DNA of 64,000 bases from Polytrichum commune (lineage: Eukaryota; Streptophyta; Polytrichopsida; Polytrichales; Polytrichaceae): the NCBI GenBank assembly GCA_950295325.1, contig OX485803.1, forward strand, positions 14,942,001 through 15,006,000, in the 5' to 3' direction. Position numbers and translations under genes: made by a program. Shown piece by piece: positions 15,854-62,950 of the stretch (its first letter is position 1; each line of letters opens with the position of its first letter). Under the pieces are notes generated by a model, which saw only the letters and a list, made by a program, of their open reading frames with translations, ran no database searches and had not been told where the DNA came from.

Positions 15854-16524
15854 GGCCTTGGCCACTGGTGGAGTTTTGGTTACTAGGCAGCAAGGCCTTG
15901 GCCAACTGGTGGAGTTCTGGTTACTAGGCAGCAAAACCTCGGCCAACTGGGTGGAGTTCTGGTTACTATGCAGCGAAGGCCTCGGCCACTGGTGGAGCTC
16001 TGGTTACTAGGCAGCAAGGCCTTGGCCAACTGGTGGAGTTCTGGTTACTAGGCAGAAGGCCTCGGCCACTGGTGGAGTTCTGGTTACTAGGCAGCAAGGC
16101 CTTGGCCAACTGGGTGGAGTTCTGGTTACTATGCAGCGAAGGCCTCGGCCACTGGTGGAGTTCTGGTTACTAGGCAGCAAGGCCTTGGCCAACTGCTAGA
16201 GTTCTGGTTACTAGGCAGCAAGACCTCGGCCAACTGGGTGGAGTTCTGGTTACTATGCAGCGAAGGCCTCGGCCACTGGTGGAGCTCTGGTTACTAGGCA
16301 GCAAGGCCTTGGCCAACTGCTGGAGTTCTGGTTACTAGGCAGCAAGACCTCGGCCAACTGGGTGGAGTTCTGGTTACTATGCAGCGAAGGCCTCGGCCAC
16401 TGGTGGAGCTCTGGTTACTAGGCAGCAAGGCCTTGGCCAACTGGTGGAGTTCTGGTTACTAGGCAGAAGGCCTCGGCCACTGGTGGAGTTCTGGTTACTA
16501 GGCAGCAAGGCCTTGGCCAACTGG
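15854..16524. repeat. minisatellite, 16 units of 40-42 bp
   Basis: Sixteen tandem units run about 671 bp. Each contains 'ggag.tctggttacta' followed by 'ggcagcaagg' or 'tgcagcgaagg' and then 'ccttggccaactgg' or 'cctcggccactgg'. Unit variants recur in ordered blocks of three or four (the 'tatgcagcga' variant marks units 3, 7, 10 and 13), so there is a higher-order repeat. There are no unique spacers between conserved repeats, so it is not CRISPR. GC content is well above the surroundings. Confidence 0.92.
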
Positions 16525-18747
16525 CTTGGAGTTGCTTAACAACAACCTACCATTAATGATATTTAGGGGTTAGCAAGGCTACACCCAATTAGTGGGTGTT
16601 AGCATATAAAAAACTAGATTACATTAGACCACTTTAGGGGTGGATAAGTAGTTAGACCTATTAGGCTAGTTGTGCTACATGTGGGATTGTATGAGTGTGT
16701 GTAGCCGTTGAGTAAAGTGTTTTTCAACACTTGAAGCTCCCGGTCAGAATAACTCACTTGCATTATTAATGGAGAAGGTGGAAGACTCTTGCGATGACAA
16801 GAAAAAAGAAGTGAAGGTTAAACGAGCAAGGGGAATGTCCTTGAGGGCATGTGTGGCTAAAGCCGCGGGGTGGACTCTTGAGAAGGCCACCTCTAGCACA
16901 AGCCAAGAGGCTAACATTAATAAAGCACGATGAGTGAAAACAATATGCTTTCTTTGTACATGGTTCAAGGTTGTAAGAGATACGTGTGATTCTCAAAGCC
17001 ATCACCCGGACTAGGACGCTTAAGGGTGGTGGATTTGGCCTCACAGGCTTTCCAAACTGTCATTCTGAATCTGGCGTTTTCAAACGTGTGTGGCCTCCCC
17101 TTAAGTCTCATGTGTGAAGTGGCCCTAAAGTTGATACCATCATTGATTGCTACTGTGGATTGGTGCCATCGATTCACCTCAACATTGACATATACTACTA
17201 AGATGACGTGCTGACATAGAAGGATTTCGATCCCTAAATCCCTTAGAGACCCAAAATGACCAATTTTTGAGGTTTTTGTCTCAAATGAGAGCTTTGATTT
17301 AATTTATTTTTTTTTTCCGATGGAGGTGAAATTCATGATTGTATTAATAAATTTCATTTTGCATCCAAAGCCCCAAATGTCATTGGATTTGGACTAAATC
17401 TCAACCTTGTGAATTTTTTCAAAGTCATCCAATGCCCCAAATTCCATTGGATTTGGACTAAACCTCATCTACACTAGGTAATGTATTAGATAGGAAAGCA
17501 ACACTCATATGTACTTGGAAATCTATGAAGATTTGCAAGGATTTAGTTTATTTTATGTTTCAAATATCTACCATTGGGATTGGTAATTGGAGTTTTTGAA
17601 GTTACTCAACAAATATTTTGTACAATTGGATTTAAAATGGAGTGCTATGCATTGCAAGGGCTCCCAAAACCACATGTGGTGCAAACATAAAAAATTCAAG
17701 CCTCAATGATTCAAAATTTGGTTGGAAATCTTATGTAAAAAAATTCATCTCGATTGGCTCTCATCCAGTCATTCATTTGATGATGTCATTAGGTTAAAAG
17801 TTTGTTCTCAATCATTTATCCTGCCTATTATACCTTCAAATATGTACTAGCTTCTCATTCACATTGCCACGTGGACGGTTGATATTTTTTCAAATAGCTC
17901 ATACAAAGGCTGATATCATATCCGTACGGTTGGATGCTCAAAAACACCTATAGATCGAGTCTTAAATTATCTCTCTTATGCCATCTTCCCACTCAACTTT
18001 AGCTAAGCCTAAAAGTTGGTTCTAAAAACACAACCTCAAAACCATCGACACTATCTACTCCCGAGCCTAGTTGGCAAATGACGTGGCATGGTTTAAAATC
18101 GGAGGTTTTAAGCCCCAAACACCGACCCTCCCATCGGTACCTAGACATGAGGCAGGAATGTCTAACCTTTAAAAGTGTCACCTCCAGCCCTTGTGATTAA
18201 TTGGTTTTAGTCTCAGCTACGAGGGCAGGAGGAGCTCCATCAACAAAAACTGATGGTCAGATAGATGAGTAGTAAGGCATTTGGAGATGGGACAAAAACT
18301 ATCTAGCATGGCATTGCTTGGTAGATCAGACAACGAACACGTGTGAAAACCACTTAACTAAAACCTACCCGAAAATGTCCGGAGCAAGTTCTTGTAGGTG
18401 CATTGGGATAGCTGGATGCTTTCGCCACAACCGAGAGAGCTTCGCCCGGGTTTTAAGGGAAAAAAAACTTTACTTATTTGGCATTAGAAACAATGCATTT
18501 GAGGCCAATTTTGAGGAGAATGGTGCTTAGGATTTAGGGGTTTTCGTTATCCGAATCCAGCAGCAGCAGCAGCATGAAAGTGGCCTTGAGTGTTTGTCCT
18601 TTACGGATGGAGTTTGTCCCCGGCCAAGCAAGGTGGACAAGTGGCAGCATCAGCCTTTTGAAATGGAGAAAGTTAGGGTGCTGCAACAACCCGAGTGCTG
18701 ACTGTATGTAGTGCCAATCCTCAAAGATACGTAGAGTAGTAGAGGTG
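16525..18747. other. intergenic with small repeats
   Basis: No gene is supported. 17103-17126 is a lone terminal repeat of MITE A ('catgtgtgaagtggccct'). 17360-17470 contains a tandem duplication of about 65 bp ('ccattggatttggactaaa.ctca'). 18558-18573 is a (CAG)n run. Confidence 0.45.
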
Positions 18748-28527: not shown

Positions 28528-31500
28528 ATGTCCACGTTACGCGAGGTGGCGGTGCCCCGGATCACGCCATTCTTGCAAATCCTGTATGGGCTATTCAACT
28601 TACTTCTGATCGGGGGGTTGGTGTACAGCTTCAAAAACACGGGAGGGTTTCACCACAAATTATCCTCTTCTCCGAAGAATCTAACTTCAGGGTTGATGAA
28701 TCAACATGATGCGTGCCCACCCGTTCCAGCAGCAAAGAGAGTTGAGAAGGTGGTAGAAGGCGCAGTCCTGGACCCGTGGCACGCATCTTCCAAATCGTTG
28801 CACTCGCCGTTCCGGTTCCCACGATGCTCCATGGATGTCTGCTTCAACTTCTCACGGTGCGACAACATGGACGAGCTGCTGGTATACCACTACGACGAAA
28901 TCAACCCTCCCAAATGGTTCTTCCAAGCTCTCAAAGCGAGCCCGTACTCCACCACCGACCCGGAGAAGGCGTGCATCTTCCTGGTCACGGTGGACAGGCG
29001 GATGGAGGAGCCTCGAATCCCTGACTTGAACACCTTGCCGCACTGGAACCATGGGTTGAACCATGTGCTAATCTCGTTCGTGGACAACTGGTCCAAGTGG
29101 AAGAACCCCATGGCCTCCACGCTGGAGAAAGCGGCCGTCATGACCAGCATCACGCACCAGACCACCTACCGCCCTGCGTTTGATATTAGTGTCCCCCTCC
29201 CTGCGTTGAAGTACTACGAGGATCTGCAGGAGCTCAAAGCGTTCCAACGAAAGTATTTTCTTACGTTTAAGGGGACCAGGTATTTGTCGGAGTTCGGTGG
29301 GGGTGGTTTCCGGAGCCACCCTTCCATGCGAGGCATGCACAATGGGAAGGATGTGATTGTGGTTACCACTTGTCGACAGGTACCTCACTCATCCTCTTGG
29401 CCTTTTTCATTGAATCTCTGCATACCTGTTTTTGCTACTCTGGCCATCTGTGCCTCCATAATTGTAATTCTATTTTTCCCTGGTCGCAACAACAACAAAA
29501 AAAACATTTCCAATCCAGTGGGTAGCTCAATCAGGATAGGGGTTCCTCAGTGCGAGATGAGGTGGGGGATTCTGGATTGGGAAGCATGTCCTCACTCATC
29601 CTCTCTGCTGCTTTCATTTCTTCAGATACCTGTTTTCGCTACTCCTAGTACCTTTGCCTCCAGTTGCAATTTAATTGGCCCCTGGTAGCAATACCTCCTC
29701 CTTCGACTGGGTAGCTCGATCAAAATAGGGGTTCTCCGTGAGAGATGAGGTGGGGCATCTTGGGTTGGGAAGAACGTCCGTAGTCATTGGTTTCTTTCAT
29801 ATCTTTGCCTCCAATTGCAGTTTAATTTGTCTCAAGTTACGAAATTAAATTCAATCCAGTGGGGTAGCTCAGTCAGGATAGGGGGTTCCCGTGTGAGATT
29901 AGATGAGGGTCCTTGGATTGCGAAGGATTTCATTATAGCTACAAGCTGTCGGTAGGTGCCGAAGAATGGCCTCAGACATCCTCTGCCTTCATTTCTGTGT
30001 CTGTATACTACTCTATCTGTTCCTCCGATTGCAATTTAATTTGTCCCAGGTTGCAAAATCTAATCCAATTCTACAGGTTATCCTGTGCTTGATTTTCTCT
30101 TGTTTGTCGATTTCAATTTTCCCTGGTTTGGGAAATTGGATTCTATGGGTAGCTCAGTCTGTAGAATAGGGGGATAAGTCCCAAATTGAGGGGAGTTCTG
30201 GAAATGGGAAGGGTGTAAGATGTTTCTTACAAGGTGTGGGCAGCTTCCCAAGCATGTCCTCACCCTCTAGTTTCCTCTTATCTTTTTAGCTGGTTTGTCA
30301 ATTCCAATTCGACCTGCCCCTGGTCTGCGAATTTGATTCATTAGTTAGCTTAATTAGTAGGATTGGGGCAACCGGATGAGACTCAATGTGACATTAGAAG
30401 GGTTTACTTGAATGGGCGCACTCGAAGTGGAGAACAAAAGCAATCTCCTGGATGGTTAGTTTTTTGAGGGTGTTTACTCGAAGCAGAAAAAATAACAAGA
30501 AATCTCTGAGTTGCTCGGAGGGTAGTAGGTTAGTCAACGTGACACTTAAAGTCTGCCGCGTACGACAGTAATGACGACTACTGAAAATGCTTGAGAAAAC
30601 AGAAGATGGCTCTCATCCTTTGCTACTTTTCGCCCGAGTCTTCCTGTGCCTTGAATTTCACTTCCCTGGTTGTAAAAATTATTTTCCATGGGTAGCTTAT
30701 ATAGGATATGGGTGTCTCTAAATGCGAGGTTTGGAAAAATTGGGGGCAGTAGAAGCAGAGACCTAAACAATCTTCTATTGCTCTTCGGTAGGTAAGCCAT
30801 TGTGACACTGAGATGCTTGAGAAATGGAAGGTGGTTGCGTGTACACAGATATTAGAGAGAAAATTAAATCATTTGAGAGAGTATTTTTGGTCAGCACAAG
30901 TGTTGGTGCAATCTTAGGTCTACAATCTCAGCCATGTGGCCAGTGAACAAGTACTACTTTTTCTTTTTGCCATCACGTGGGTTTCTCATTGCCAAATTGT
31001 TGTTTTTGATAGGGGGAAGGGGGTCTAGTTTGAGTGATCTGTAGGGACCCAAGGTAGGGAATTGTTGGTGATTCTCTTACGATGCTCTTTTTTGAGTGTT
31101 CTCTGAATGTGGTCTTCTTAAACCAGGTTTCAAACAATGAATATTTGAAGGAGCACCCGGAATTGGTACCCGAGTGCGAGGCGAACCATAAGGTGTACAA
31201 GGAATACAATTTTGGCGACTTGATGAATTCCACGTTCGGCCTTGCCCCCGCGGGGAGGGGCCCCTCCTCCTTCCGTCTGTTGGAAATCTTATCAGCGGGT
31301 TCCATACCTGTGCTTGTGTCCGACAACTTTGTCCTACCGTTCGACATGCTCATCCAATGGGAGCGGTGCGTGTTGATGTTCCCGACAACCGAGATGCACC
31401 GGATCCTGCCCACGCTTCGGGCCCTCAAGCACGAGGAGGTTGAATTTCGGAGGGAGTATTGTCTCTTCATCTACCGCGAGTTTCTGGAAACCGACCAAAA

Positions 31501-31621
31501 GCTCGTTGCAACCGTCATGCTCGCGTTGAAAACCAGGTTCTACGGCATGCTCCCCCGGCTCGCACAGAAAATCCCGGTCCCCACCAAGTTCTTGCGGGGC
31601 ACGACGCAACAACCCGCGTGA
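28528..31621 (+). CDS. exostosin-family (GT47) glycosyltransferase, EXT-like, two exons
   Basis: Exon 1 is 28528-29379 and exon 2 is 31127-31621. The donor is CAG|GTACCT and the acceptor CCAG|GTTTC, phase 0, joining to 448 residues. Residues 12-35 are a single hydrophobic segment with no cleavable signal, so it is probably a type II Golgi membrane protein. The exostosin domain runs from about residue 100 (CSMDVCFNFSRC) to about 410. It includes the central PAFDISVPLP and FKGTRYLSEFG blocks, HNGKDVIVVTTCRQ, and after the intron the family hallmark GLAPAGRGPSSFRLLEILSA (about 322-341) followed by GSIPVLVSDNFVLPF. Reading through the donor would stop soon after in non-homologous sequence, which supports splicing. 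The order of blocks resembles the first domain of animal EXT proteins, but there is no GT64 domain. GT47 enzymes build cell-wall polysaccharides; the specific substrate cannot be told. Candidate poly(A) signal at 32076. Confidence 0.88.
29380..31126 (+). other. GT47 intron filled with diverged tandem units
   Basis: This 1747-bp GT-AG intron contains at least six related units marked by 'gggtagctca.tcaggatag', at about 29519, 29709, 29863, 30150, 30342 and 30689. Most are associated with 'ttgcaatttaatttg' and 'ccctggt'. Spacing is irregular, from about 150 to 350 bp. The marker resembles a pol III A box (TAGCTCAGTCAGG), but no B box accompanies it. Confidence 0.6.
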
Positions 31622-35329: not shown

Positions 35330-35872
35330 TGTTGATTTAGCCGTCACCTTAATGATATTTGGGTCAGTCGCCTTCGCAAAAATCAGACTACACCCACCAT
35401 CCTTCATAATTAAGAGTGCTACGCACTTAGCTATGACACACTAGATTCTTGTAGGCCAGGTGGGCAAATTAGGAAGCCGCTTGTGGCTATGAGGTTGTGG
35501 GTATCCTATAATGAATAGCTAGTTCGGCGGCATCTGATCTTACCCGTGACCACTTTAGAGACATGACACGGTCAATATTGGCATTAAACTTGGTTTTCAC
35601 TGGCGAATGACCTATGTAGAATCTCCTAGTGATGTCATCCACTTACATAACATTGAACGATGGAAGAGTTCCCCCCTATACCACCAGATTGGGAAGCAAA
35701 GAATCTTTGATTCTAGAACCTAAGTCAACACAATCCTCAACTCCAAATTCAATGATCTCAAATTCTTTGGTCTTAAGTCGCAATTGCAAAGCTGCTGAAA
35801 CTTCTTATGCTCGAATCCAACAGTTGGATGATCCACAAGGCTAGTGATGTCCACATTAACCTCATCTACCTC
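35330..35872. repeat. dispersed repeat family M, copy 1 (interrupted by a solo LTR)
   Basis: An inverted partner of about 40200-40790. Matching blocks include 'atgatatttgggtcag.cgcc' against its inverse, 'acacccaccatcctt', 'catgacac', 'acataacattgaacgat' and 'gcaattgcaaag'. Similarity resumes at 36851 after the solo LTR is skipped ('cctcatctacc' then 'tcacact'), which shows the LTR inserted into this repeat. Origin unknown; possibly an old retroelement. Confidence 0.65.
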
Positions 35873-36845
35873 TGTCGCAACCCTTGCTAGCCCCCTTGAC
35901 CATCTTGCCAATTTTCGTTTCTAGCAAAGGTTACGAGAGCTAACCCTTCGCATACCGCCATGCTAATGGTTAGCTCCTCCTACCCCGGACCTTATAGTTC
36001 ATAAGAGGGAACCAACCCTCCTACTTTGCTTTCAGGACTCACCCCTTAATCGGTAACCCATTCCTAGATGTGGACTTCCATCCATGGAAGCCCAATCCCA
36101 TGTTGATCATCGCGTTGCCGGAGCAACACTACAACAACCCGAACCATACTAGGCAACTATGGCCTCACATTGGGCCAATGCCCATGGAGGCCGTGCCGTT
36201 CGGCCTCGGGTGGGTGAGGCCACACCACCTCACCCCTATAAGCCTCTAGGACTCTACGCGGGACCCCTACCCCACCGTCAACCAACCTCTTGTCTCTCTA
36301 CCAAGAGTTGGAGCCAAGTGGACACTTTCCTTTAGCTGCTGGGCCTAAAACCCCCCCAGCAGCTTCAGACCATCATAACTTCCTTGTATGATGTCTGATC
36401 AGAACAACCTACCACTCCATCCTCATCTACGCTTCACGTAGATGCCGATGGACTCCTCACTTGCCCCATTTGGGCAAGTCTTGAGGAAGTTATGCCTGTT
36501 TGAATCCTTGCAGTCCCGGGAATCACTCCCAGGCACTGCTGTACCAGGGCGCTGTCCCGGGACAGCGCCCCACTCAAATGGCCATAACTCCTAGCTCACA
36601 CCTCCGCTTGAGGTGATCTTGAGCATTCTAGAATCACCACGCCATGAGCTACGCATAGCTCATGGCCTTACCCTCATGCCTCCTAGTCTCCGTGGGTGGG
36701 AGGCGTTCCCAACGCCCGGGGCCCTCACCCACACTAGGATCACTTGGGCCCTCTCACCAACGGCGCCACAAGTCCCGGGTGTCACTCCGGGGTCCCCCTT
36801 GTGCCCATGGTGTTTCGGGCACTCCTCATGGAGAGGTGCGCGACA
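35873..36845 (+). mobile_element. solo LTR, 973 bp, perfect 5-bp target duplication
   Basis: It begins TGTCGCAACCC and ends GTGCGCGACA, a perfect TGTCGC...GCGACA inverted terminus, and is flanked by ACCTC on both sides (35868-35872, 36846-36850). The first about 600 bp match the LTR of the element at 55871-57861. It is GC-rich against the surroundings. This is what remains after recombination between two LTRs. There is no PBS or internal sequence next to it. Confidence 0.9.
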
Positions 36846-42811: not shown

Positions 42812-43880
42812 ACTGGGACTTGGTTATTATCGAGTTTCCTTTTATTCACGACAAGGTGTGTCATGTATTTTATGGCTATCTGATGTACGTGTTTCATGAG
42901 CTTTTTGACTTCTCATGGGGGTATTTTGAGGTCATCTAGTACTTCTACTGATTGTTTGTGAATGTCTCCTCATACCCATGATGTGATGGTAATAAGGGGA
43001 TTAACATTCCAACGAACAATTTTTAATGTCTATATGAGGGGGTCATATTTATTGCATTTTTCTCTTAGGGTTGTCTCAGGAAATCTACTGTAACAGTAGA
43101 TAAAATCTATGAATTGTATGGTGTTTGATGGGTTTGGGGGGGGGGGGTGTTGTGGCTATCTATGGGGGAGGGGGCTAGAATACATAGGATGTCAGGTCTT
43201 AGCTGGGCCAAGCATGTCCATGTGTTTGGGTGGTATTTTGGTGTTTGGTGTGATGTCTAGACTAGTTGTACATAGTTGAGTGCGATGTTAATTGGGTAAT
43301 GGTATGAGTTTTGATGTTGGTGAGTTTAGGTTTAGCATTTTGGTATGATATGGAGTGGGATGCTAGTAAAGAAACCATTTATAAGGCTATTGAAGGTGGA
43401 ATTGTTGCCACCTTGTCATGAGAAGGTTTCATTGTTGTGGGCGGGGTGTAGGCCTTGCATGAATTATGCCCAATCTTTGTCCTCTCGATTGCAGTTTTAG
43501 GGGGTGCCATCGTGTAGACATCCAACTAGGAGAATGTCTCTATTGAAATCCACTACTAAAAGTACTTTGTGTGTAGGTGGTTTTTGGTGGGGATTTAGAT
43601 TTGATTTAGATTTTAGATTTTAGAGATCAGTTGGAGGTCAATGGGGTGTGAGCACATGTATAAGTTCATTATGAGCAGTGGTGTAAGTGGTTTGTTAGAT
43701 ATTTGAAGACTAGTAGTATGGAGATATGTTACTTAGGGTGGGGATTTGGTAATATATTTAGTGGAATATATGTTTGTGTGGATTATGGCAAGGGTGCCGC
43801 CGCTTGAGGGTTTGGATGTTATGAATTGTGGGTGTCTTCATAGGTTTGTGTCATTTGTGTGATTATAAAGGATTATGTAA
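42812..43880 (-). pseudogene. fragment of a second dual-endonuclease LINE: EEP joined directly to RLE
   Basis: Conceptual translation of the minus strand, allowing frameshifts and stops, first gives an EEP endonuclease segment: SGGTLAIIHTNIY near 43790, VDFNRDILLVG at about 43525-43555, then a QGG...LINGFF stretch. It parallels the element at 52900-61450. It then runs without any reverse transcriptase into the restriction-like part: QLRPDILCI at about 43200, QFIDF at about 43100, RFPE...KCNKY at about 43060, WNVNPLITIT, and KYMTHLVVNKRKLDN at about 42830. The D in QFIDF matches the E in QFIEF of the other copy. RT and RNase H (about 4 kb) are deleted. Several in-frame stops show it is dead. 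The upstream end is cut at the pogo-like insertion. Confidence 0.72.
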
Positions 43881-43903
43881 TCTGAGAATTGGTTGTCTAT
43901 GTA

Positions 43904-52427: not shown

Positions 52428-52547
52428 TATGTAGTGTGCTTGTAGCACATAAGTTCCATCTTTCGTGTAGGCATGCTAGCCTTCACCATATAGGGATCAA
52501 ACTCTACAACCTAAGTAGATAGATAGATAGAAACTCTGGTCCCTATT

Positions 52548-52676
52548 TAAAGGGGCCGGCGTGAATGAAGTGTCTGTTCGTATTGTCAAATGACCCGATG
52601 CCCACCAGACAAGGGGAAATTAGGACAATACTACTCTCCCCTTCCGGGGATGGACACTATAGTAACCGGAAAACAA
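52548..52676. repeat. dispersed repeat shared with 6130-6262
   Basis: Inverted, diverged copy of 6130-6262; 'actatagtgtc' and 'gaa.agacact.cattcac' are shared. The type of element is unknown. Confidence 0.45.
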
Positions 52677-52739
52677 AATAAAGGTAACCCTCCTTGGTTG
52701 TTTAGCACATAGTTGCGTCTATGTTATAGTATAAGTTGT

Positions 52740-52890
52740 AATTTGTTGTGTTTGGTGGTCGCCAAGTCATGTTTCCTTGGTTGGTTGAGGGAGGATGTTT
52801 AACTACATGTAGACGGTCCGGGTTCGGCTCCCGTTGGGTCCGTTTGAGCGTTTAGTGTGTTATACGTGACTTGGTGCTGCTAGTGATTTA
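52740..52890 (+). mobile_element. possible tRNA-derived SINE
   Basis: tggttgagggagg (52782-52794) fits the pol III A box. ggttcggctcc (52821-52831) fits the B box (GGTTCGANTCC) with one change. The spacing is about 27 bp. There is no cloverleaf, so it is not a functional tRNA gene. It lies beside the 3' end of the LINE in the opposite orientation. No target duplication or tail was identified. Confidence 0.35.
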
Positions 52891-53018
52891 AAGGCAGGAA
52901 AATTGTACCAACCAGCTGGCTCCTACCCATCTTCATGAGCTTATTGGTGTTTATATTGTTCAATAAATAAAGGACTACCTTATGATCATTTTCTTGTTCT
53001 TGTTTGTTTATTTGTTGA

Positions 53019-53546
53019 TTATTCTGTTGGTATTGTTTGGTTATTTTCAATACGTCTTTTATGTAGAAGGATTGAACTGGCATATTGTATGGCAATGGTG
53101 TTTATTTCTTTGAATGTATAGTTTATAGAATTTTGAGGTAGTTTAAATGTTTGTTCAATTTGTTTCATTGACGGGATATGCGTGGTTCCTCTAGCTCCAG
53201 CCGAGATGACTATAAGTGGGTCTACTTTCCAGCCTTGTTGGGTGATGTCATTAATTAGTGGTTGATATTTTTGAATTTTATTGTCAGTTGTATCTTGTGG
53301 GAATCTGTCATTTGTGTATGTGAATTCAATAAATTGTACCGTGAGGTTGTATGTTGGGTGTGGTGGTGGCGTGCTTTGGTGTGGGAGTTCTTTGATACAC
53401 AGGAGGTCGGGTTTAAATTGTGCGTTGCAATGGCATCTTTGTTGTTCACATGTACATGGTAGGAGCCATGTGAGGACTGTATTATCTTGTGGGTTGTTGT
53501 CGAATGTCCCTGCATTCATAAGGATGTAGCATATTGATTTTTGCAA
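53019..53546 (-). pseudogene. LINE C-terminal restriction-like endonuclease (RLE) segment
   Basis: An open stretch of 175 codons. C31, C33, C38 and C40 form a small cysteine cluster (CTCEQQRCHC). FKPDLLCI (P46, D47), then QFIEFTY (E74), then K90 and KY at 93-94, give the PD...(D/E)...K..KY order of the RLE found in R2-like elements, where it nicks the target DNA. A conserved region GWKVDPLIVISAGARG and LLHKRRIEN follows. The second copy at 42812-43880 keeps PD, D and K..KY. It is in the same frame as the RNase H segment, separated only by one TGA at about 53571, so both were one protein. The RLE assignment rests on motif order, not on a structure match. Confidence 0.7.
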
Positions 53547-53570
53547 TGTTAGGATTAGTTTTCCTAGTTT

Positions 53571-54300
53571 TCATACTGATTTGTTATGTCTTTTGGTTCT
53601 TAGGGCATGTACATGGTGTTGATTGCATTTTAAGAGTACATGTAGCCATGTATCTGCATAAGAGGAGTTACAGATTGGGCATGTGGTAGATGAGAATCTT
53701 TCTATGCCAAAAAATAGTTGTTTTCTGGCATTGCCCATGTATTGTCCAGTTCGGAATTTTAGTATGCATGTTTTTTGTGAGTTTGTTATTACAGGGTTAG
53801 ACCATAAATTATTCGATATTTCATTATCAATGTCAGGGTTCATTGTCCATTTGCTAATGTTGGGGAATTGTTCTGACATGGTTTTTAGGTTGTTAACTCG
53901 GTCGTGTTTAGTTATGTATGTTTCGAGGCATCTAACAGGGCCTTTGTCAGGTCGCTTGTTTGGTCCAGGCCATGTGTCTTTTTGGAAGTAGTATGGTGTG
54001 ATGTGTGCAAATTCGTATGACTTGGCAGCGAATCTGTATCTCTTTTTGGCGCCATGTTTTGCTAATTGGTCTGCTTGCTCATTCCCATCAATGTTTGTGT
54101 GTGCTTTTACCTTATATATCGTAGTAGGTTGCGTTCGGCTTTTTAGCATTTCTATCATAGATGTTAATATAGTTTTGTAAGTAGTTGTGTTGATGTCTTG
54201 TATAATATTCTTTTAGTAATTTGATGTTGTGTTCGATTACTGGGGGTTGGTTTAGTGGGAAGAGTTCGCATTGTGGCATTCATTTGTTATATGTGGTGTT
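53571..54300 (-). pseudogene. LINE RNase H and zinc-finger segment
   Basis: From 54158 the frame is open for 195 codons; upstream, frame shifts are needed to follow the RNase H fold. Visible are IYKVKAHTNIDGNEQADQLA (residues 14-33), which includes the VKxH and GNExAD motif with the last catalytic Asp, and later a CPIC...H...C finger (C160, C163, H173, C178) with a basic tail. RNase H removes the RNA strand after reverse transcription. The earlier catalytic Asp/Glu residues are not clearly seen, so the domain is damaged. Confidence 0.75.
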
Positions 54301-54599
54301 GTTTTGGAGTGACCATTGGCATAGATATGTGTTGATTTTTTTTGTTATTTTATACTTATATTTGGTTTCGTTTGATTTGTGGTTTAGTATAATGTGGATG
54401 TGGAATCTGAGTGGGTTATTTTTTATGTTGGGGGGTAAATTGGGTTGTTGTGGTAGTGGTGGGTGTAAGGGGTTTTCTTGCATTCTGGGTGTTAGTTCTC
54501 TATTTCCTGATATATATATCTTGCTTTGAGTGTGCGGGCTTGTAGGTGCGTGTTACACAGATTTGGGCAGTTTTGGTTGCAATTTTGTTGGCAAAAAAG

Positions 54600-55870
54600 T
54601 TGTTACGCTATACGTAGTACAGTTTTTTCAAGTTTTGTTGGTGTTTTATAATATATTTGAAAGTCTTTTGGTGACATTAGATTTGTGCCATTGGGGAGAG
54701 AGATGTAATTTACTTTTTGTATATTGTGAGTTAGGAGTTTATGAAGTAGTTTTAGGGATAGCTCGGGGTTTAGTTGTGGTAGTTCGGTTGTGGCTTGTGT
54801 TCTCCATTCATGTTCTAGTTCTATTGTGTGGAGTTGGAAGTTTGCTTCTATACTTTTGAGGTGAGCTCCTCCTTCTTTTTTCATTAGAAATAATATTCGT
54901 GTTGTAGGTGATCTTATACAGTCTTGGTATTTAATTTTTTGTATGTCCTTTGCCCCACCGTGTTTGGCTAGTATGTGTTGTATGAGCCCTTTGTATATTA
55001 TTCCTAATCTTCCGGGGTCGTTTAGTGCGTTTCTATGTTGTTCACTAATACATCTTAGGTAGGCATTTTTTAATGAGAATGCTTCTAGTCCAAATAGGTC
55101 ATGTGATAGTTGGGTTATTATATTTGTTGTGCATTTGGGTAGACCACATATTATTTTTCAGATTCCAATTATTTTTTTGTCTAATTTTTTGATGGTTGGT
55201 AATGAGTATGGGATTGCGTAGAAGCTATAGGCTATACCAGCTCTGATGACAGTATCCACCATGCTTATTTTTTGTTTGATTGTAGCTGGGCATTTTGTTA
55301 GTTCTTTGTATTGGTTTATTATTTTGGCCAACGTGATGTGTGTTTGGAGCTTCCATTTTAGTGAAGGTACTAGTTGTATGCCTAAATAGACGTAGGGTTC
55401 GTTTTGGTGTAGGATAGGTAGTGGTTGGTTTATGTAGTTGATGTTTTGGGCTTGGATTTTGACTTTGAATGTTTCTGGTTTTGTTTTGATTTATTTGGGC
55501 ATCATGTGATGGCATATTTTGGTACTCCCAAATCCATTCCGGCCCAATCACAGTATTTGTGTAATTTGCTTAGTTGTGTTTGTATTGATTGAAGATTGCT
55601 TGTGATAGCAGCAGATCATCTGCATATGCTGCCGAGCTGATTGTTAGTTTGGACGTACCAAATGTGTATCCATTCTTTCCTCTCTGTAGCCATCTTAGTA
55701 GAGGTTCTAGGAATATTAAGAAGAGGTATGGGTTGAGTGTGTCGCCTTGTATTGTGCCTCTTTGTATTGGTATAGGTTTTGTCTTTCCGAAGTGTTCACC
55801 GGTGAATATGGTATTGGAGTTTGAATAAATGTTTCCTATTAGGGTCACCGCATCTTCTGGGTATCCTAAG
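54600..55870 (-). pseudogene. LINE reverse transcriptase, C-terminal part
   Basis: Next to the LTR element insertion the frame reads LGYPEDAVTLIGN, then RGTIQGDTLNPYLF (motif B, about 55760), then AAYADDLLL (motif C, catalytic YADD, about 55620). A shift is then needed; the region to 54600 encodes thumb/connection sequence (LPTIKKLDKK, MKKEGGAHLKSI). The YADD aspartates are intact. The first three codons of the open frame belong to the inserted element and not to the LINE. Confidence 0.85.
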
Positions 55871-57861
55871 TGTCGCAACCCTTGCTAGGTCCCTTAACAA
55901 TCTTGCCAATTTTCGTTTCTAGCAAAGGTTACATGCATCGCGGCCTCCTTTGTCTCATGCGGTTCGCCCTTTCCAAACCTCACCTTGGTGGGCTTGACCG
56001 CTCTACCAATCGGCAAGCCCGAACTCCCTTATGAGTTTTGGGCTCAAGAAGAAGTGGTAGCCTCTTTATCAATACATGAGACATTTCTCCCATTCATTTG
56101 AGCCTCAAGGTACAAAAGACTTGGCCTCGGCTTAAGGCTACTAGCCTTGGCCACAATGCCATAGTCTTACATTCGGTTCGCGGCACAAGTATTATTTGGC
56201 GGGGAACCTATCTCCCCTCAACGTCCATTGTTGTAACGCACCGCCAAATTGCTTAATGGGGTCATCGGCCTTGATGCTCATGGCAATTTTGATGATCCCC
56301 GCCACAACCTCAATAAACTTTGGAAATTTGAACTTGGTATTCACCACCCGCTTTTGAAACCCACCTAAAACGATGCATTTCTTAGAAAGCTCGTTCATCA
56401 AAGATGTACTATTCATTTGGGTGCGAAATGGGCGCATATACGCCTTAAGAGGCCCAGACGCCTCATTTCCACCAAATTCATTCCAACATCAATACCTTCC
56501 AAGCATTTCGAATTGGAATTTCAATCCAACATTAATGCCCTCCAAGGTTTTGGGTGCATTCGGTATTCTAGGCCCCAAATGTTTTTTTGAGGTGTGCGGG
56601 AGCCCTTTCAAAGGACTCCACCATTTTCCTTACTAAATCCACCATCATGCCCACCATTGTCATTAGAACTAATGGTATGGCCAAATTCCATTTACACATG
56701 ATCTTTGTTCCAATTTGAGCCTTACAACCTTTTGGAAAACCCGGGCTCACCATAATAACCCTCAGGTTTGATAGCCATGTCTCCCTCAAAGTGCTAGCTC
56801 AAAATATTGGAACCCTGCTCTGATACCACGTGTCGCAACCCTTGCTAGGTCCCTTAATAATCTTGTCAATTTTCGTTTCTAGCAAAGGTTACGAGCGCTA
56901 ACCCTTCGCATTCTGCCATGCTAATGGATAGCTCCTCTTACCCCGGACCAATAGTTCATAGGAGGGAACCATCCCTCCTACTTTGCTTTCGGGACTCACC
57001 CCTTAATCGGTAACCCATTTCCCCAATCTGGACTTCCATCCATGAAAGTCCAATCCTATGTTGATCATCGCGTTGCCGGAGCAACACTACAACAACCCGA
57101 ACCATACTAGGCAACTATGGCCTCACAATAGGCCAAAGCCCATGGAGGCCTTGCCGTTCGGCCTCGGGTGGGTGAGGCCACACCACCTCACCCATATAAG
57201 CCTCTAGGACTTCACGCGGGGCCCCTACCCCACCGTCAACCAACCTCTTGTCTCTCTACCAAGAGTTGGGGCAAGTGAGGAGTCCATCGGCATCTACGTG
57301 AAGCGTAGATGAAGATGGAGTGGTTGGTTGTTATGATCAGACATCATACAAGGAAGTTATGATGGTCTGAAGCTGCTGGGGGGTTCTAGGCCCAGCAGCT
57401 AAAGGAAAATGTCCACTTGGCCCCAACTCTTGGTAGAGAGACAAGAGGTTGGTTGACGGTGGGGTAGGGGCCCCGCGTGAAGTCCTAGAGGCTTATATGG
57501 GTGAGGTGGTGTGGCCTCACCCACCCGAGGCCGAACGGCAAGGCCTCCATGGGCTTTGGCCTATTGTGAGGCCATAATTGCCTAGTATGGTTCGGGTTGT
57601 TGTAGTATTGCTCCGGCAACGCGATGATCAACATAGGATTGGACTTCCATGGATGGAAGTCCACATTGGGGAAATGGGTTACCGATTAAGGGGTGAGTCC
57701 CGAAAGCAAAGTAGGAGGGATGGTTCCCTCCTATGAACTATTGGTCCGGGGTAAGAGGAGCTATCCATTAGCATGGCGGAATGCGAAGGGTTAGCGCTCG
57801 TAACCTTTGCTAGAAACGAAAATTGACAAGATTATTAAGGGACCTAGCAAGGGTTGCGACA
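55871..57861 (-). mobile_element. non-autonomous LTR retrotransposon with palindromic LTR, inserted in the LINE
   Basis: It has TG...CA ends and a perfect 5-bp target duplication CTAAG (55866-55870, 57862-57866). On the minus strand the 5' LTR is 57861-56831 (1031 bp), followed after two bases by a primer binding site (tggtatcagagc, 56828-56817) for initiator tRNA-Met, an internal part of about 900 bp and a 3' LTR reduced to its last 62 bp (55932-55871). The 5' LTR is a 442-bp-arm inverted repeat (56831-57272, 57420-57861; about 99% identical) around a 147-bp centre. A normal LTR of the family is at 35873-36845. No pol genes. Confidence 0.85.
55933..56808 (-). pseudogene. internal, gag-like remnant of the LTR element
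   Basis: Short frames follow the primer binding site: MAIKPEGYYGEPGFSKRL-type residues near 56780 and an 81-codon frame at 56437-56192 with FQKRVVNTKFKFPKFIEVVA. There are stops and no protease, integrase or reverse transcriptase. Nothing specific can be assigned; 'gag-like' is by position only. Confidence 0.4.
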
Positions 57862-58400
57862 CTAAGTCTTTTGTTATTGCTAACAGCCTTGCGTGATCGA
57901 GGGAACCAAAGGCATTTTTGAAGTCAATATATAATAGGTATATATCTTGGTTTATAAATCTTGCATCATCTAGTGCTGCTATGAGGAGTTGGAGTTGTAT
58001 GGTCGTGTTTTTTTCTGATTTGAATCATTTTTGGCTGTCGTGTAGGATTTGGTATTTTTCTCCATATATTGATAATATGAATGTTATGGTACTTGTAAAG
58101 AATTTGTATATTGTGTTTGCGAGTGCAATTGGTCTATGGTTTGATAATTTTGAGGGGTCTCCTTTTTATATAAGAGTATAGTTAAGCTTATTTTCCATGA
58201 TATTGGAATTTATTTTTGTTTGTAACAGTGGGAGAAGAATAGGAAGAGTAGTTTGTGGAAGCTTTCGGACATAGTCTTTTTAATTATATTGGGAATTTTA
58301 TCGGGACCTGGTGTTTTGTTGTTTGCTAGGTTTTTAAGGCAAATGTCGTATGTTTCTCTATCAAAGTATTCATGTAGTGAAATTTGCGGGTTTCCTATTT
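57862..58400 (-). pseudogene. LINE reverse transcriptase, N-terminal part
   Basis: Conceptual translation gives NNKTPGPDKIPN (about 58300), WKISLTILLYKKGDPSKLSN (about 58180), NHRPIALANTIYK, and motif A in LLYIDFKNAFGSLDHARLL (about 57920). It ends at ITKDL exactly at the insertion, and the sense continues beyond the LTR element. One stop (TAA) interrupts it near 58220. The catalytic motif A aspartate is present. Confidence 0.85.
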
Positions 58401-59059
58401 TGTTGATAACAAAATCATCAAGATCATGCCAGAGGTATTGTCTTACACCGCATGTACAGTATGATGTGTGTTCTGGTTGGTGATAGCATGTTGGTACTGT
58501 GGGTTTGTTGCTTATGAATTGTTGTATGTGGATTTCGTTGGCTATGTCTATAGGGTTTGTAAGTATGTTGTTGTGTTCATCTGTAATGCAATCGAGTGGG
58601 GGTGTTTTTCTTTATTTTTGAAGACTCTTTTGTTAATTTTCTTTGGACTTTTTTCATATAATTGTTTGTATTTGGATATGGTTTTTTTGATGCATTCTTG
58701 GGTGTATTTTGTGGTAATTTTTCGGGCATGTATATTTGCAGTTTTGGCTATTTGGGCTAGTGTTTTTATCCATTCTTGTTGGTTAGGTTATTGGTTGGGG
58801 GGGGGGGTGGAATAACCACTTGAGTATGATTACTTAGTTCTTCTATGATTGGGTGTGTCGACCAGTTAGGTGACTTTTTTATTTGGTAGATTGTTTTCCT
58901 AATTAAGTGGTAGGTGGAGAGATGGTTTTTCCATTTTGTTTGTAGTTTTCTTGGTAGGAAGCCTCTTTGTTGTGATGTTCGGTTTGTGAGGTCTGGGAGG
59001 GGTGGTGCGCTACACGTGTCCTGAATTTTTTCAGAAATTTGTTGAATTAGGTGGTCTAA

Positions 59060-60035
59060 CTTAGTGCAAGATGTTTGTCATTGTTCATTTGTTATTTGGT
59101 TGTTATTTAATGTGTTTGTGAGTTCGTTTATTTGGAGTGCATTTTCTTCAAAAAAAATTGTTTCGAATATTTCGATATTTGCATATGGGATGGGGTTTAG
59201 TAGCCTTGGTGGTTTTTCTGTTGTTGGTGGCATACAACGGGTTAGTAGTGTATTTGGTGGTATATGTAGTGTTACTGAGGAGTGGTCTGAGTTTAGGTTA
59301 TGGTCATTATTTGTGGTTGATGAGTATAGAGCATTATTGGTTGTTTTAATGTAATATCCATCTATTAAGCTAGTTTGGTTGTAGTCTTGACCCCCTTGTC
59401 TAGAGTATGAGCTATCCATGGGGATATATGTGAGTTGGAGGTTATTCGTAAATGTATGTCATTCTATATCTTCAACTTGTGGTGGAGTTGTTATGTATTT
59501 ATTTTGTCGTCCAATTAGGGCTATGTCTCTATTAAAGTCTCTGCATAGGATGAATGTGTGGTTTGGGTGGTTAGTATTTTGTTGTGTTATGTTTTGTTGT
59601 ATTATTGGTATAAGTCGTATGTCCTCTTCGTATGATGACATGTAAATGTGTATTATTAACCATGGTTATAGGGGTTGGTTGTTTATTTTTATTATTTGTA
59701 AATATGGTGATATTGCAGCTGGAGTGGGGATTTTGGTGATGTTACCAGGATATGCGTATGATTTGTTTATGAGTGTAAGGAATCCACCTCTTGCAGGTGT
59801 ATATGGCATTATTTGTTGTATACATCTTGTTAATGTATGTGTATTGTTGAATATTAATTTGTATTGTGAGAATAAATTTTGTATGTACTTTGTGAATTTT
59901 GTTGCGGTTAGTTTAGTTTTTTTGTATAGTGATGATTGCGGGGTTATTTGGTGTATATGATATAAGTTGGTGGAGGTTTGGTAGGGCTGTGTTTAGTGAC
60001 GAAGCGTTCCATGTAATTAAGTGTGTGCTGTGATT
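59060..60035 (-). pseudogene. LINE EEP (apurinic-type) endonuclease segment
   Basis: The segments, in order, are ITWNASSLNTALPNLHQLI (about 60020), PAIITIQKTKL (about 59930; family consensus has Glu where this has Lys), PARGGFLTLI, CRDFNRDIALIGR (about 59540; consensus GDFN) and LNSDHSSV (about 59220). This is the endonuclease/exonuclease/phosphatase fold that nicks target DNA in APE-type LINEs. The Asn, DFN and SDH residues are retained, but the catalytic Glu is replaced and frame breaks occur, so the domain is inactive. Confidence 0.8.
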
Positions 60036-60622
60036 TGTTGTTTGGTTTTCTTGGGGGCGCAACGTGGGTATGTCGGGTAATGATGGGGGTGAGAATATTC
60101 ATTTAGCGGGTCTTTGCATTTTAAAGCTTCTCTAAGTAATTCTTCTGGTAAAAAGGAAATTTGTCTGTTATTAGCTGTATGTTTAAGGGTGCATTACTTT
60201 GTTTGATGAAGTTATATAGTTCTTTGTGGATGGTTTTGGGTGGGTTGATAATGTCTTGGTTTGTTTGTAAGAATTGTGTGTATGGGTGTGTGGTTGTGAT
60301 GTGTTTTTCGGGTGGGTTTTGGAATGAGGTCATGCGTTCTAAAATTGTTGTTGTCCAATCATGTTATGGGGTTTGTATTAATAAATAGTTGCATGTTTCT
60401 ATTGCGAGGTGGTGGACGATGTTGGTTTCTGTAGATGTATCTTGATAGGTACGGGTAGTTTATGATTGTTTCGTGGTGTTTTGGGTGTGTTAAGTTTATG
60501 ATAGGGGAGAATTGTTTTGCTAGATGTTGGTATTCATGTTGTAATTTGATTGTGCATTCTATAAAATACCTTTTACATCTATTTTTGTGTGTGGTTGGAT
60601 GTGTTTGTAGGATGTTGGGCAT

Positions 60623-60649
60623 GGGTCCCGGGTTGGTTTCAATGTCCCC
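60623..60649 (-). other. 2A-like ribosome-skipping motif
   Basis: On the minus strand these bases encode GDIETNPGP, directly followed by Pro-less MPNIL. The DxExNPGP consensus is fully met, and it is preceded by a hydrophobic FFLHLLIL stretch, as usual for 2A. A TGA stop lies two codons upstream (60655-60653). 2A-like motifs near the N terminus of ORF2 are known from several animal and trypanosome non-LTR elements. Here it would have split a short basic leader from the replication protein. Confidence 0.8.
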
Positions 60650-61420
60650 ACTTCATAGTATTAGTAAGTGTAAGAAAAATGCTTGGATTATGAGCAGGTT
60701 TTTTCGTTCTTTGTGTGTTGTGTGTTGTTATTTTTTATTTTTCTTTATTTTAGTGTCTAGATTTGTTATGTGGTTTGGGTGTTCAGTGGTTCTTTTTTGT
60801 GGTTTTTTGGGATGCGTAGTTTTGTATTTGTTTCTTTTTTCTTTTTCTTTTTTATTTTGTTATTTTGATTTTGGGCGAGGCCGGTAGGCCGAGCCCGTCT
60901 TAGGTGGTTTTCGTTGATTCTGTTTTGTGTTTTTGTGTTTTTGTGTTTTGGGGGATTGTTTGAGAGGATTGGGGTGATGTTGTGGGTTGTTGTTTTTGTA
61001 GTGGTATGGTGTGCGTTTGTTTGTTTTCTTATTGATTTTTGTGTTTGATATGGTTTTGGTTTTTTATTTGTATTTTGAAGGTGTGCTTTGGTTATGTTTG
61101 TTTGTTTCTTGTGTTTGTTCGTAGTGTTTATGTTTATTTTTGGTAAGGTTTTACGTATATTATTTTGGTTTTGTTTTTTGTTTTATTTGGTCATTGGTTT
61201 TGAGAGATGTTTTGTTTTTATTGTTGTGGTTATTTTTTATAATTTTGGTTGTTTGTGTTTGTTTGTGGTTTTCTTGGTTTTTGTTGTTTTGGTTTTGGCT
61301 ATCAATCTTTTCTTGTTTATTATTTTGCTTTGTTCCTATGAGTTTTGGTTTGAAGCATAGTTTTAGGTGGGTTTTGAGGTTTGGGTGGGGTTTGGGTATT
61401 TTTGGCTTAGTTTTATTTAT

Positions 61421-62950
61421 TTATTGGTTTTTTATGAGTGTGTGTTTGGTTAATGTGCTTTGGATGTCCAACATTTGCTTCTTCAATTTGTCGTTGATGT
61501 CATCTACATAGTTGTGGGCCTCTTTGACTATGTCATCCTTCAAGACCTTCATCTCTTCGTGTAGTTCAAGCTTGAGTTTCTTATTACCTTCTTCAATGGC
61601 CTCGTTCATGATGGTAAAAACTTCGCTTTTGGTGGCATTCTTCTCACCTTGGTTTTGGTTTTGGATTGCTTCAATGGTGTTCACCAAGCAAGTGTTAGTA
61701 TCTTTAAATCCAAACTTAACCAACAAGTCTTTGGAAGGCTTGTCAATACCCTCAAGACTTCTACGGTGTGGAGTGATTTCCACATGATAAACAACAATTT
61801 ATTCGTCTTTTCCTACAAACTTTTTGTATACAAAGGGGTTGAGGCATTCAACATTTGCACTACCATTGTGTCTAATCCCATCTTGCTTGTGGAACTAAAT
61901 GGAGACAACATTCTTGGTTCCAATTATCTTCCAAATTTCAAGAGATGTGTCATCTATGCTCATCAAGATGGGAAGGTTATAGAAGGTGAGAGTTAGAGCT
62001 TCTTTCCTTTGTTTTTGCTCCAAGGTAAGAGAAGGCCCTTCCTTCACTTGTCCTTCCAAAATTTCATGGTGTGTTGCAACTTGAAGTTCTTGAATTTTCT
62101 TGGTTTGTGAGGGAGTTGGTGCAACAATGTAAGCACGGTTGTTGGAAGTGCCCTTTTGCACCTCTACAATCTCAAATTCATAACCTCTTTTAAAACTATT
62201 CTCTAAAACATCCTTGAAGAGCATGTGTGAAGAGACACCAATCAAAGTTTCGCTAGTGATTTTCATTGAAAGGTTGTTCTTCATAGCTATGGAGTGGTAA
62301 GTCTTACCTACCTTTCCAAGAGTACCTTGGGTTGATTTCGGGTCCAATTGTAGAATGAATGGTCTAAGTCCTTTCAACAAGGCCACCCCATCAATTTTAG
62401 GGTGGAGAAGGTGGATTTTGGCAATTCCCGCCCAAATTCCTTTCTCCCCACCTCTCTTAACACTCATGCACATGATAGATATGGGCTCAATAAGATTAGT
62501 GCCAAGTGGTATTTGCATAAAATCAAGTATTGTTCTTACTAGTTCTTTCACATGGTTGTGTAGGAGAGGGGTGTTAGGTAACTGAAATTCAATAGCAACA
62601 TGGAAGTCCAAAGCGAGACATGTATTGGGATCAATAGGGATATCATATGGAATTTGTATTAAATTTAGGTGTTGTCCAAGGACACCATCCTCTCTCTTAC
62701 CTGGGTAATAGATTTGGGGTATCCTTCGGAAGGATATTGCGATCCCCTCCATTTCTTCCGCTTCCTTCCTTGGTACTCCCCTAAGTACCGTATCTTCAAT
62801 GGAATCACCATCGAAAAGCTATTCCATAGCCAATTTCTTTATGTTAGTAAAACAATACCAAATTTTTTTACGGAACCCTCGTTCCGGGACAATAGAATTT
62901 ACTTGTGGGCTTGTGGAATTTGGTGTAGAAATTTGTTCGGTGTTGTCTTA
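61421..62950 (-). pseudogene. ORF1/gag-like protein with RRM-like and coiled-coil regions
   Basis: The main open frame is 62752-61895 (285 codons). It extends upstream to about 62940 through one TAG and downstream, after breaks, into 61783-61421. In the N-terminal half, WAGIAKIHLLHP begins a first possible RRM-like fold. LTLTFYNLPILMSIDDTSLE with NGSANVECLN further on suggests a second. The last part (NKKLKLELHEEMKVLKDDIV) is helical and likely coiled coil. That order is compatible with a LINE ORF1 RNA-binding chaperone, and it lies upstream of the Dualen-like ORF2 in the same orientation. It could equally belong to another element cut by the LINE. I do not recognise the family. Confidence 0.45.

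Follow-up and report, generated by a model that had tools for sequence, protein, structure and literature searches.

Does the nuclear genome of a land plant carry long interspersed nuclear elements (LINEs) that code for two endonucleases? The question is raised by a 64,000-nucleotide stretch of the moss Polytrichum commune (contig OX485803.1, positions 14,942,001 to 15,006,000), referred to here as the window. A preliminary description of it had read, on the minus strand, an EEP endonuclease, a reverse transcriptase (RT), an RNase H, a zinc finger and a C-terminal PD-(D/E)-K nuclease, and had assigned them to one element of the Dualen/RandI clade. Two-endonuclease LINEs are taken in passages of one account as a step between R2-like and APE-type LINEs (PMC4640811). 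As far as the cited passages go, a survey of 2015 listed Dualen/RandI for green algae alone (PMC4438587), Dualen is recorded in Chlamydomonas and its relatives (PMC8226300), and LINE/Dualen was reported in cryptophytes in 2025 (PMC12747079). Among the papers listed by the literature searches (titles, the starts of abstracts and passages, with Repbase and subscription journals lying outside), neither a Dualen element in a land plant nor a PCIF1 domain in a retrotransposon was found. Our results indicate that the window very probably holds a dead copy of a large and recently active LINE family of the Dualen/RandI type, with two endonucleases, in the moss nuclear genome.

Results

The copy in the window and its two endonucleases

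Homology with another genomic copy (L010) spans the element from 61451 to 52517, with 94% identity over the best long stretch (Table 1). The bounds given previously (52900..61450) agree with this on the 5' side, but its 3' end extends some 380 bases past the noted start; the range is indeed a single LINE copy, except that 55871-57861 is a later transposon insert. The domains named on the minus strand are indeed there, but the copy is broken and keeps only the C-terminal part of the RNase H. Outside the insert the sense strand is A/C-rich (A about 0.45, G about 0.10) over approximately 53000-61500, and the composite reading of the copy, in our own segmentation, consists of 22 frame segments; it is interrupted by 9 in-frame stops and changes frame 12 times, once at the insert. 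Relative to P0002, a related protein that is 61% identical to the composite across the aligned part, a deletion near 54160 has removed 428 codons (residues 387-814), which comprise a methyltransferase-like domain and the N-terminal part of RNase H. One EEP catalytic motif is mutated as well, from IQET to IQKN, and RDFN stands in place of GDFN.

Table 1. Features of the LINE copy and of its surroundings in the window
Feature	Position	Strand	Basis or remark
Whole LINE copy	52517..61451	-	Homology with copy L010; 5' end approximate, may be 5'-truncated
2A-like (StopGo) motif SGDIETNPGP, N-terminal of EEP	60623..60652	-	Direct reading
APE-type (EEP) endonuclease domain, broken and mutated	59237..60035	-	Family profile, composite aa 216-482
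Reverse transcriptase domain, split by insert 55871-57861	55122..58350	-	Family profile, composite aa 783-1196
Later transposon insert, not part of the LINE	55871..57861		Inverted ends TGTCGCAACC..GGTTGCGACA, target duplication CTTAG
Linker after RT thumb, to the deletion junction near 54160	54115..54492	-	tblastn with P0002 residues 247-386
RNase H, reduced by deletion to its C-terminal part (KVKAHTNIDGNEQADQLAK)	54048..54167	-	Pfam RNase_H, 1.8e-5
CCHC zinc knuckle CPIC..H..C ahead of the nuclease	53625..53681	-	Invariant columns C46, C49, C64 in alignment A2
Restriction-like endonuclease	53022..53570	-	265-aa stretch: D of PD = 137, E164, K183-Y184
Stop codon and 3' untranslated region, terminal hairpin 52536-52560, (TCTA)n tail ending at about 52516	52517..53021	-	3' end shared among copies; hairpin folds
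Second, older relic of a related element: EEP joined directly to restriction-like endonuclease, RT lost	42820..43903	-	Much older than the main copy
Host exostosin GT47 gene	28528..31618	+	Exon-like pieces 28528-29685 and 31082-31618; Pfam 6.2e-11 and 4.3e-15

Family profiles built from relatives, close ones included, found the EEP domain in the composite with an E value of 9e-59 (best of 200 shuffles 0.022) and the RT with 1.9e-133 (best of 200 shuffles 0.53), and the RT motifs YIDFKNAF, RGTIQGDTL and YADD could be read. When ten bare fragments of the window were searched with Pfam, two relevant matches were obtained, both just below the Pfam cut-offs (RVT_1, 1.3e-6 on 55573-55884; RNase H, covering profile positions 97-140 of 141), the rest being weak and unrelated.

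The restriction-like endonuclease (RLE) had been called from motif order and named the weakest link of the description. If this were just another plant LINE of the APE type (L1 or I), its C-terminal PD and KY would be a product of chance or part of a non-nuclease zinc-finger region, and it is true that Pfam found no nuclease at the C-terminus of the bare fragments, that a phmmer search of the 183-aa RLE piece alone returned no match in PDB, and that a like zinc knuckle occurs in some APE-type proteins. Profile, structure and RT tree contradict this explanation. An RLE profile made without the window and without its close relative P0002 still found the RLE in the window at 1.1e-24 (best of 200 shuffles 0.38). 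In the ten aligned RLE sequences (alignment A2) the D of PD, the E and three zinc ligands are invariant, and the knuckle aligns with the zinc knuckle of R2. The A2 profile matched 9nl3 (1.5e-8), 9dou (2.2e-8) and 9nl2 (5.8e-5) in PDB, the next match being at 0.38, and R2 chains occupied ranks 1-7 of 997 when the predicted RLE structure (pLDDT 74.6, pTM 0.77) was aligned with PDB chains. The RLE is also under constraint, as described below. We consider an ordinary APE-type LINE highly improbable; a single-endonuclease L1 or I element is rejected by the RT tree together with the RLE tests, and refuted as to fold. Both traits of Dualen/RandI are thus present in the same element, an APE-type endonuclease N-terminal of the RT and a PD-(D/E)xK endonuclease C-terminal of it.

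Intact copies in the moss genome

The 408-Mb assembly (64 contigs, with the window part of contig C1) was searched for further copies, and seven of its contigs, of 42-78 Mb, make up nearly all of it; seven large contigs would suit a moss with n=7, as in Polytrichaceae. The RT piece has at least 40 copies at 81-100% identity, window included (40 of 338 candidates scored), and the RLE protein at least 151 matches (150 of 4,663 candidates scored). Among 20 copies fetched around RT matches, a subset of that list, one (L028) reads through 2,919 codons in a single open frame, which contains the 2A motif, EEP, RT, a PCIF1-like domain, RNase H with its full motif set, zinc knuckle and RLE. Two others, L030 and L031, which were chosen for long frames among the listed RLE matches, each stay open for 2,625 codons, with a DNA identity of 99.4% between them over 9.2 kb; the domains were scanned in L030. 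Intact copies therefore code in one frame for a leader, a 2A-like motif, an APE-type endonuclease, an RT, a PCIF1-like domain, an RNase H, a zinc knuckle and an R2-type RLE. An APE-type LINE and an R2-type element lying side by side and read as one might be suspected in the window, where the copy is in 22 segments with an insert. However, the two nucleases follow each other in the same order within single frames of L028, L030 and five other proteins; such a chimera is refuted by the intact frames of the two copies and is hardly credible. Ten loci on six contigs share one identical RLE score at 63% identity, which points to a recent spread, and L018 and L019 are 98.4% identical.

Pairwise comparison with L028 gave ratios of nonsynonymous to synonymous substitution rates (dN/dS) of 0.10-0.16 for EEP (8 pairs), 0.08-0.12 for RLE (6), 0.05-0.08 for RT (7), 0.05-0.13 for RNase H (12) and 0.15-0.27 for the PCIF1-like domain (6), so that both nucleases lie at about twice the RT value and well below 1. 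One of the nucleases could nevertheless be a passenger, retained as a folded DNA-binding module that no longer cuts, given that on paper one nuclease should be enough for a LINE and that the window copy has lost one EEP motif. Against this, L028 retains the catalytic motifs looked for in each of the two nucleases (L030 also has those of EEP), and both nucleases are constrained; dN/dS cannot separate DNA binding from cutting. On balance we regard a passenger nuclease as unlikely.

RT phylogeny and related proteins

In an RT tree of 68 rows, the window and 16 rows marked beforehand as near kin formed a clade with support of 100/100. A second tree, from which 8 rows had been removed (5 flagged as long branches and 3 by choice), held 60 rows and recovered the near-kin clade at 100/99, joined at 96/91 to a clade with three R2 structures. 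The L1-type structure 8c8j (49% of columns filled) fell in another 100/100 clade, in a tree with no labelled plant L1 row, and the window RT clade stands apart from L1 and other APE-type rows. Placement of the window RT inside the R2-side clade, a group defined after the first tree and with RLE not shown for every row, was rejected (p-AU 5e-46).

Protein searches with the element gave 56 proteins and then 17, or 71 distinct ones, the second search scoring the best 8,000 candidates by shared words. Complete EEP, RT, PCIF1-like domain and full-length RLE stand in one open frame in five of the 71 (P0008, P0057, P0058, P0059, P0061), and two more, P0014 and P0060, start inside EEP. The RLE profile reaches P0017-P0022 weakly over most of its length (2e-3 to 5e-6), among which P0018, P0020 and P0021 are named oomycete proteins. 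Some distant relatives carry other domains, namely a Josephin-type protease domain N-terminal of EEP in P0010 (Pfam 2.4e-10) and weakly in P0008 (0.051), and a PHD finger in P0012 (4.2e-5) and P0007 (4.4e-4), both below the Pfam cut-off. A scan of viral contigs with P0001 gave no match.

The PCIF1-like domain and the 2A-like motif

PCIF1 is a cap-specific m6Am methyltransferase. In P0002 a PCIF1 domain lies between RT and RNase H (Pfam 5.9e-10), and P0012, P0058 and P0011 also match PCIF1 in Pfam, with P0061 just below the cut-off. A profile of seven of the PCIF1-like sequences matched only two PCIF1 sequences in PDB (3.5e-11 and 1e-10). The homologous methyltransferase core is seen in relatives and genome copies, and is absent from the window copy because of the deletion near 54160. 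Might the domain act as an N6-adenosine cap methyltransferase on the element RNA? The homology, with the shared blocks SPLN, FG and GS..NP, and the constraint measured against L028 would agree with such an activity. However, that constraint is weaker than on the other domains, and the NPPF catalytic site of PCIF1 is not kept, being NPEY in eight of ten aligned relatives, HPNN in P0002, HPPE in P0061, HPPN in L028 and HPHN in L030. With this motif changed, ordinary methyltransferase catalysis appears doubtful, and we hold an active cap methyltransferase to be possible but improbable.

The 2A motif, D(V/I)ExNPGP, precedes EEP in frame, as GDIETNPGP in L028 and GDIEPNPGP in L030, and 2A-like motifs also occur in P0003-P0006 and P0009. 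Going by the title of the 2013 work of Odon, non-LTR (long terminal repeat) elements with 2A sequences are reportedly of the APE type. In the otherwise G-poor 5' region of the window copy there is a GC-rich motif around GGCCTACCGGCC at 60879-60890; the peptides RARPTGLA and SAYRPRHK, noticed by eye, recur in the 5' regions of P0004-P0006 and P0009 and may reflect this motif.

Ends of the element

The window and 15 of the 20 fetched copies share a common 3' end, a hairpin followed by AGTT and TCTA repeats and then by differing sequence; in the remaining five copies (L014, L018, L021, L026, L027) the motif search landed elsewhere. The hairpin is, for example, GCCGGCCCCTTTAAATAGGGACCGG, and in L028 GCCGGCCTCGAAAGAGGACCGG. 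Many copies lose similarity at differing 5' points, and a 15-base repeat flanks L011 on both sides, as a target duplication. A fixed 3' end, varied 5' points and differing 3' flanks are what target-primed reverse transcription at no fixed target would be expected to give. Within the 3' untranslated region, at 52800-52960, inspection by eye of the window and of genome copies showed a tRNA-like AGCTCA..GGTAG block and a GGTTCG-like block on the opposite strand; a tRNA scan and an Rfam scan of the window gave no match.

Other features of the window

The insert has long inverted arms (449 bp, 98.7% alike) with TG..CA ends, its 5-bp target duplication lies at 55866-55870 and 57862-57866, and a related stretch is found at 35867-36468. 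The exostosin gene lies 21 kb from the LINE copy; in a tree of 35 rows (34 of 101 matches chosen) it groups with four JGI/ENA proteins, sister to a clade with the moss Ceratodon (100/100). Open reading frames at 61421-62752, including a 285-aa frame without a Pfam match, adjoin the 5' end of the LINE and look interrupted by it, and a tandem array occupies 15854-16533 (period about 124, 5.5 copies, 93% matches).

Discussion

The Dualen/RandI reading is supported by the two nucleases, the RNase H and an RT clade outside the RLE-only and APE-only groups. The checks that the preliminary description had proposed speak in its favour: the RT does not fall inside a single-endonuclease clade, the predicted C-terminal domain resembles R2 nucleases in structure, and collection of genomic copies led to intact two-nuclease frames. 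With these recent, intact-frame copies in a moss genome, the range would extend to land plants. The find goes beyond the first description: it is a two-endonuclease LINE family, recently active in a land plant, that also carries a methyltransferase-like module. Taking the pieces together, we think it fairly likely that such LINEs form a lineage of their own in land plants, which goes on amplifying in moss and unites in one polyprotein 2A recoding, two endonucleases under selection and a captured, catalytically altered PCIF1-type domain.

Several points weigh against this reading. The blank phmmer search was later settled by profile and structure. The RLE profile also picks up, through its zinc-knuckle part alone, several APE-type proteins from outside the clade (for example P0030, 2e-6), and for this reason RLE was counted only where the match runs through the PD-E-K core. 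Nine of the 17 clade rows do not show both nucleases, eight having no RLE in frame (P0016 also lacking EEP) and P0011 no EEP, so that the label rests for them on RT and partial domains. There is no labelled Chlamydomonas Dualen/RandI row in the RT tree, and no labelled algal Dualen sequence was among the matches of the two element searches; membership is supported by architecture and tree position. Long frames arise easily in A/C-rich sequence, and the first ~580 low-complexity codons of L028, ahead of the 2A motif, may be non-coding. The stretches read for L030 and L031 do not reach both ends, so that this pair could be a duplicated segment. The selection test used stop-free stretches chosen beforehand, which biases it towards conserved ones, and the medians over all pairs (with dS above 0.05) are mostly higher than the values against L028: 0.15 for EEP (36 pairs), 0.08 for RT (27), 0.21 for the PCIF1-like domain (20), 0.19 for RNase H (77) and 0.16 for RLE (20). 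The highest values for single pairs are 0.66 (EEP) and 0.97 (RNase H), which would fit copies that decay once inserted. A clear target duplication was seen in only one of nine junction pairs tested (that of L011), six further copies having no 5' or no 3' end for the test; the eight unclear junctions perhaps stem from imprecise 5' breakpoints in A/C-rich sequence. Finally, the order of the two nicks in the mechanism below is one that we infer.

In that mechanism, the 2A motif would release the leader and the element protein would hold the 3' hairpin. The RLE, presumably packed on an R2-like RT, is marginally the better candidate for the first nick, which would prime reverse transcription, with the APE-type nuclease a close contender for that step. 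The APE-type nuclease would otherwise make or help the second-strand cut, or widen the choice of target, and RNase H would remove the RNA template. The PCIF1-like domain most likely would bind or mark the capped 5' end of the element RNA, without being a normal cap methyltransferase.

Young copies with intact frames mean that the role of each nuclease could be asked in a land plant. With the PCIF1-like domain, retrotransposons would gain an RNA-modification module of a new kind; if the reading is true, its presence in diverged relatives would be an overlooked property of a wider Dualen-like group. The in-frame 2A motif suggests that a plant genome puts such motifs to natural use.

Among known systems, the Dualen/RandI elements of green algae share with the moss family an APE-type and a PD-(D/E)xK endonuclease in one element, as passages on them state (PMC3636483), an RNase H (in a passage of PMC4640811), an RT apart from the APE-type groups and a short tandem-repeat 3' tail, although the algal tails are given in one passage as (ATT)n or (CTATTT)n (PMC3747384) and the moss tail is (TCTA)n. 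The moss family differs in its land plant host and may differ in its in-frame 2A-like motif and PCIF1-like domain. R2 and Utopia/NeSL elements, which are RLE-only, have in common with it the RT, the zinc knuckle and the C-terminal RLE; they give the best structural matches, and the R2 side is its sister in the RT tree. However, R2-type elements have no APE-type nuclease and, according to a passage on them, mostly fixed targets (PMC4640811), whereas the moss family has EEP and differing 3' flanks. The 2A-like motif is shared with non-LTR elements that carry 2A sequences (PMC4981915), which by the title mentioned above are of the APE type. PCIF1 itself is the only PDB match of the domain profile, but the domain is embedded in a LINE polyprotein and does not keep NPPF. 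Capture of a methyltransferase by a retrotransposon has a parallel in the cytosine methyltransferases described, in passages of one study, from a LINE and a DIRS-like element of the dinoflagellate Symbiodinium and a Gypsy element of Klebsormidium (PMC5890265), although these belong to an unrelated family.

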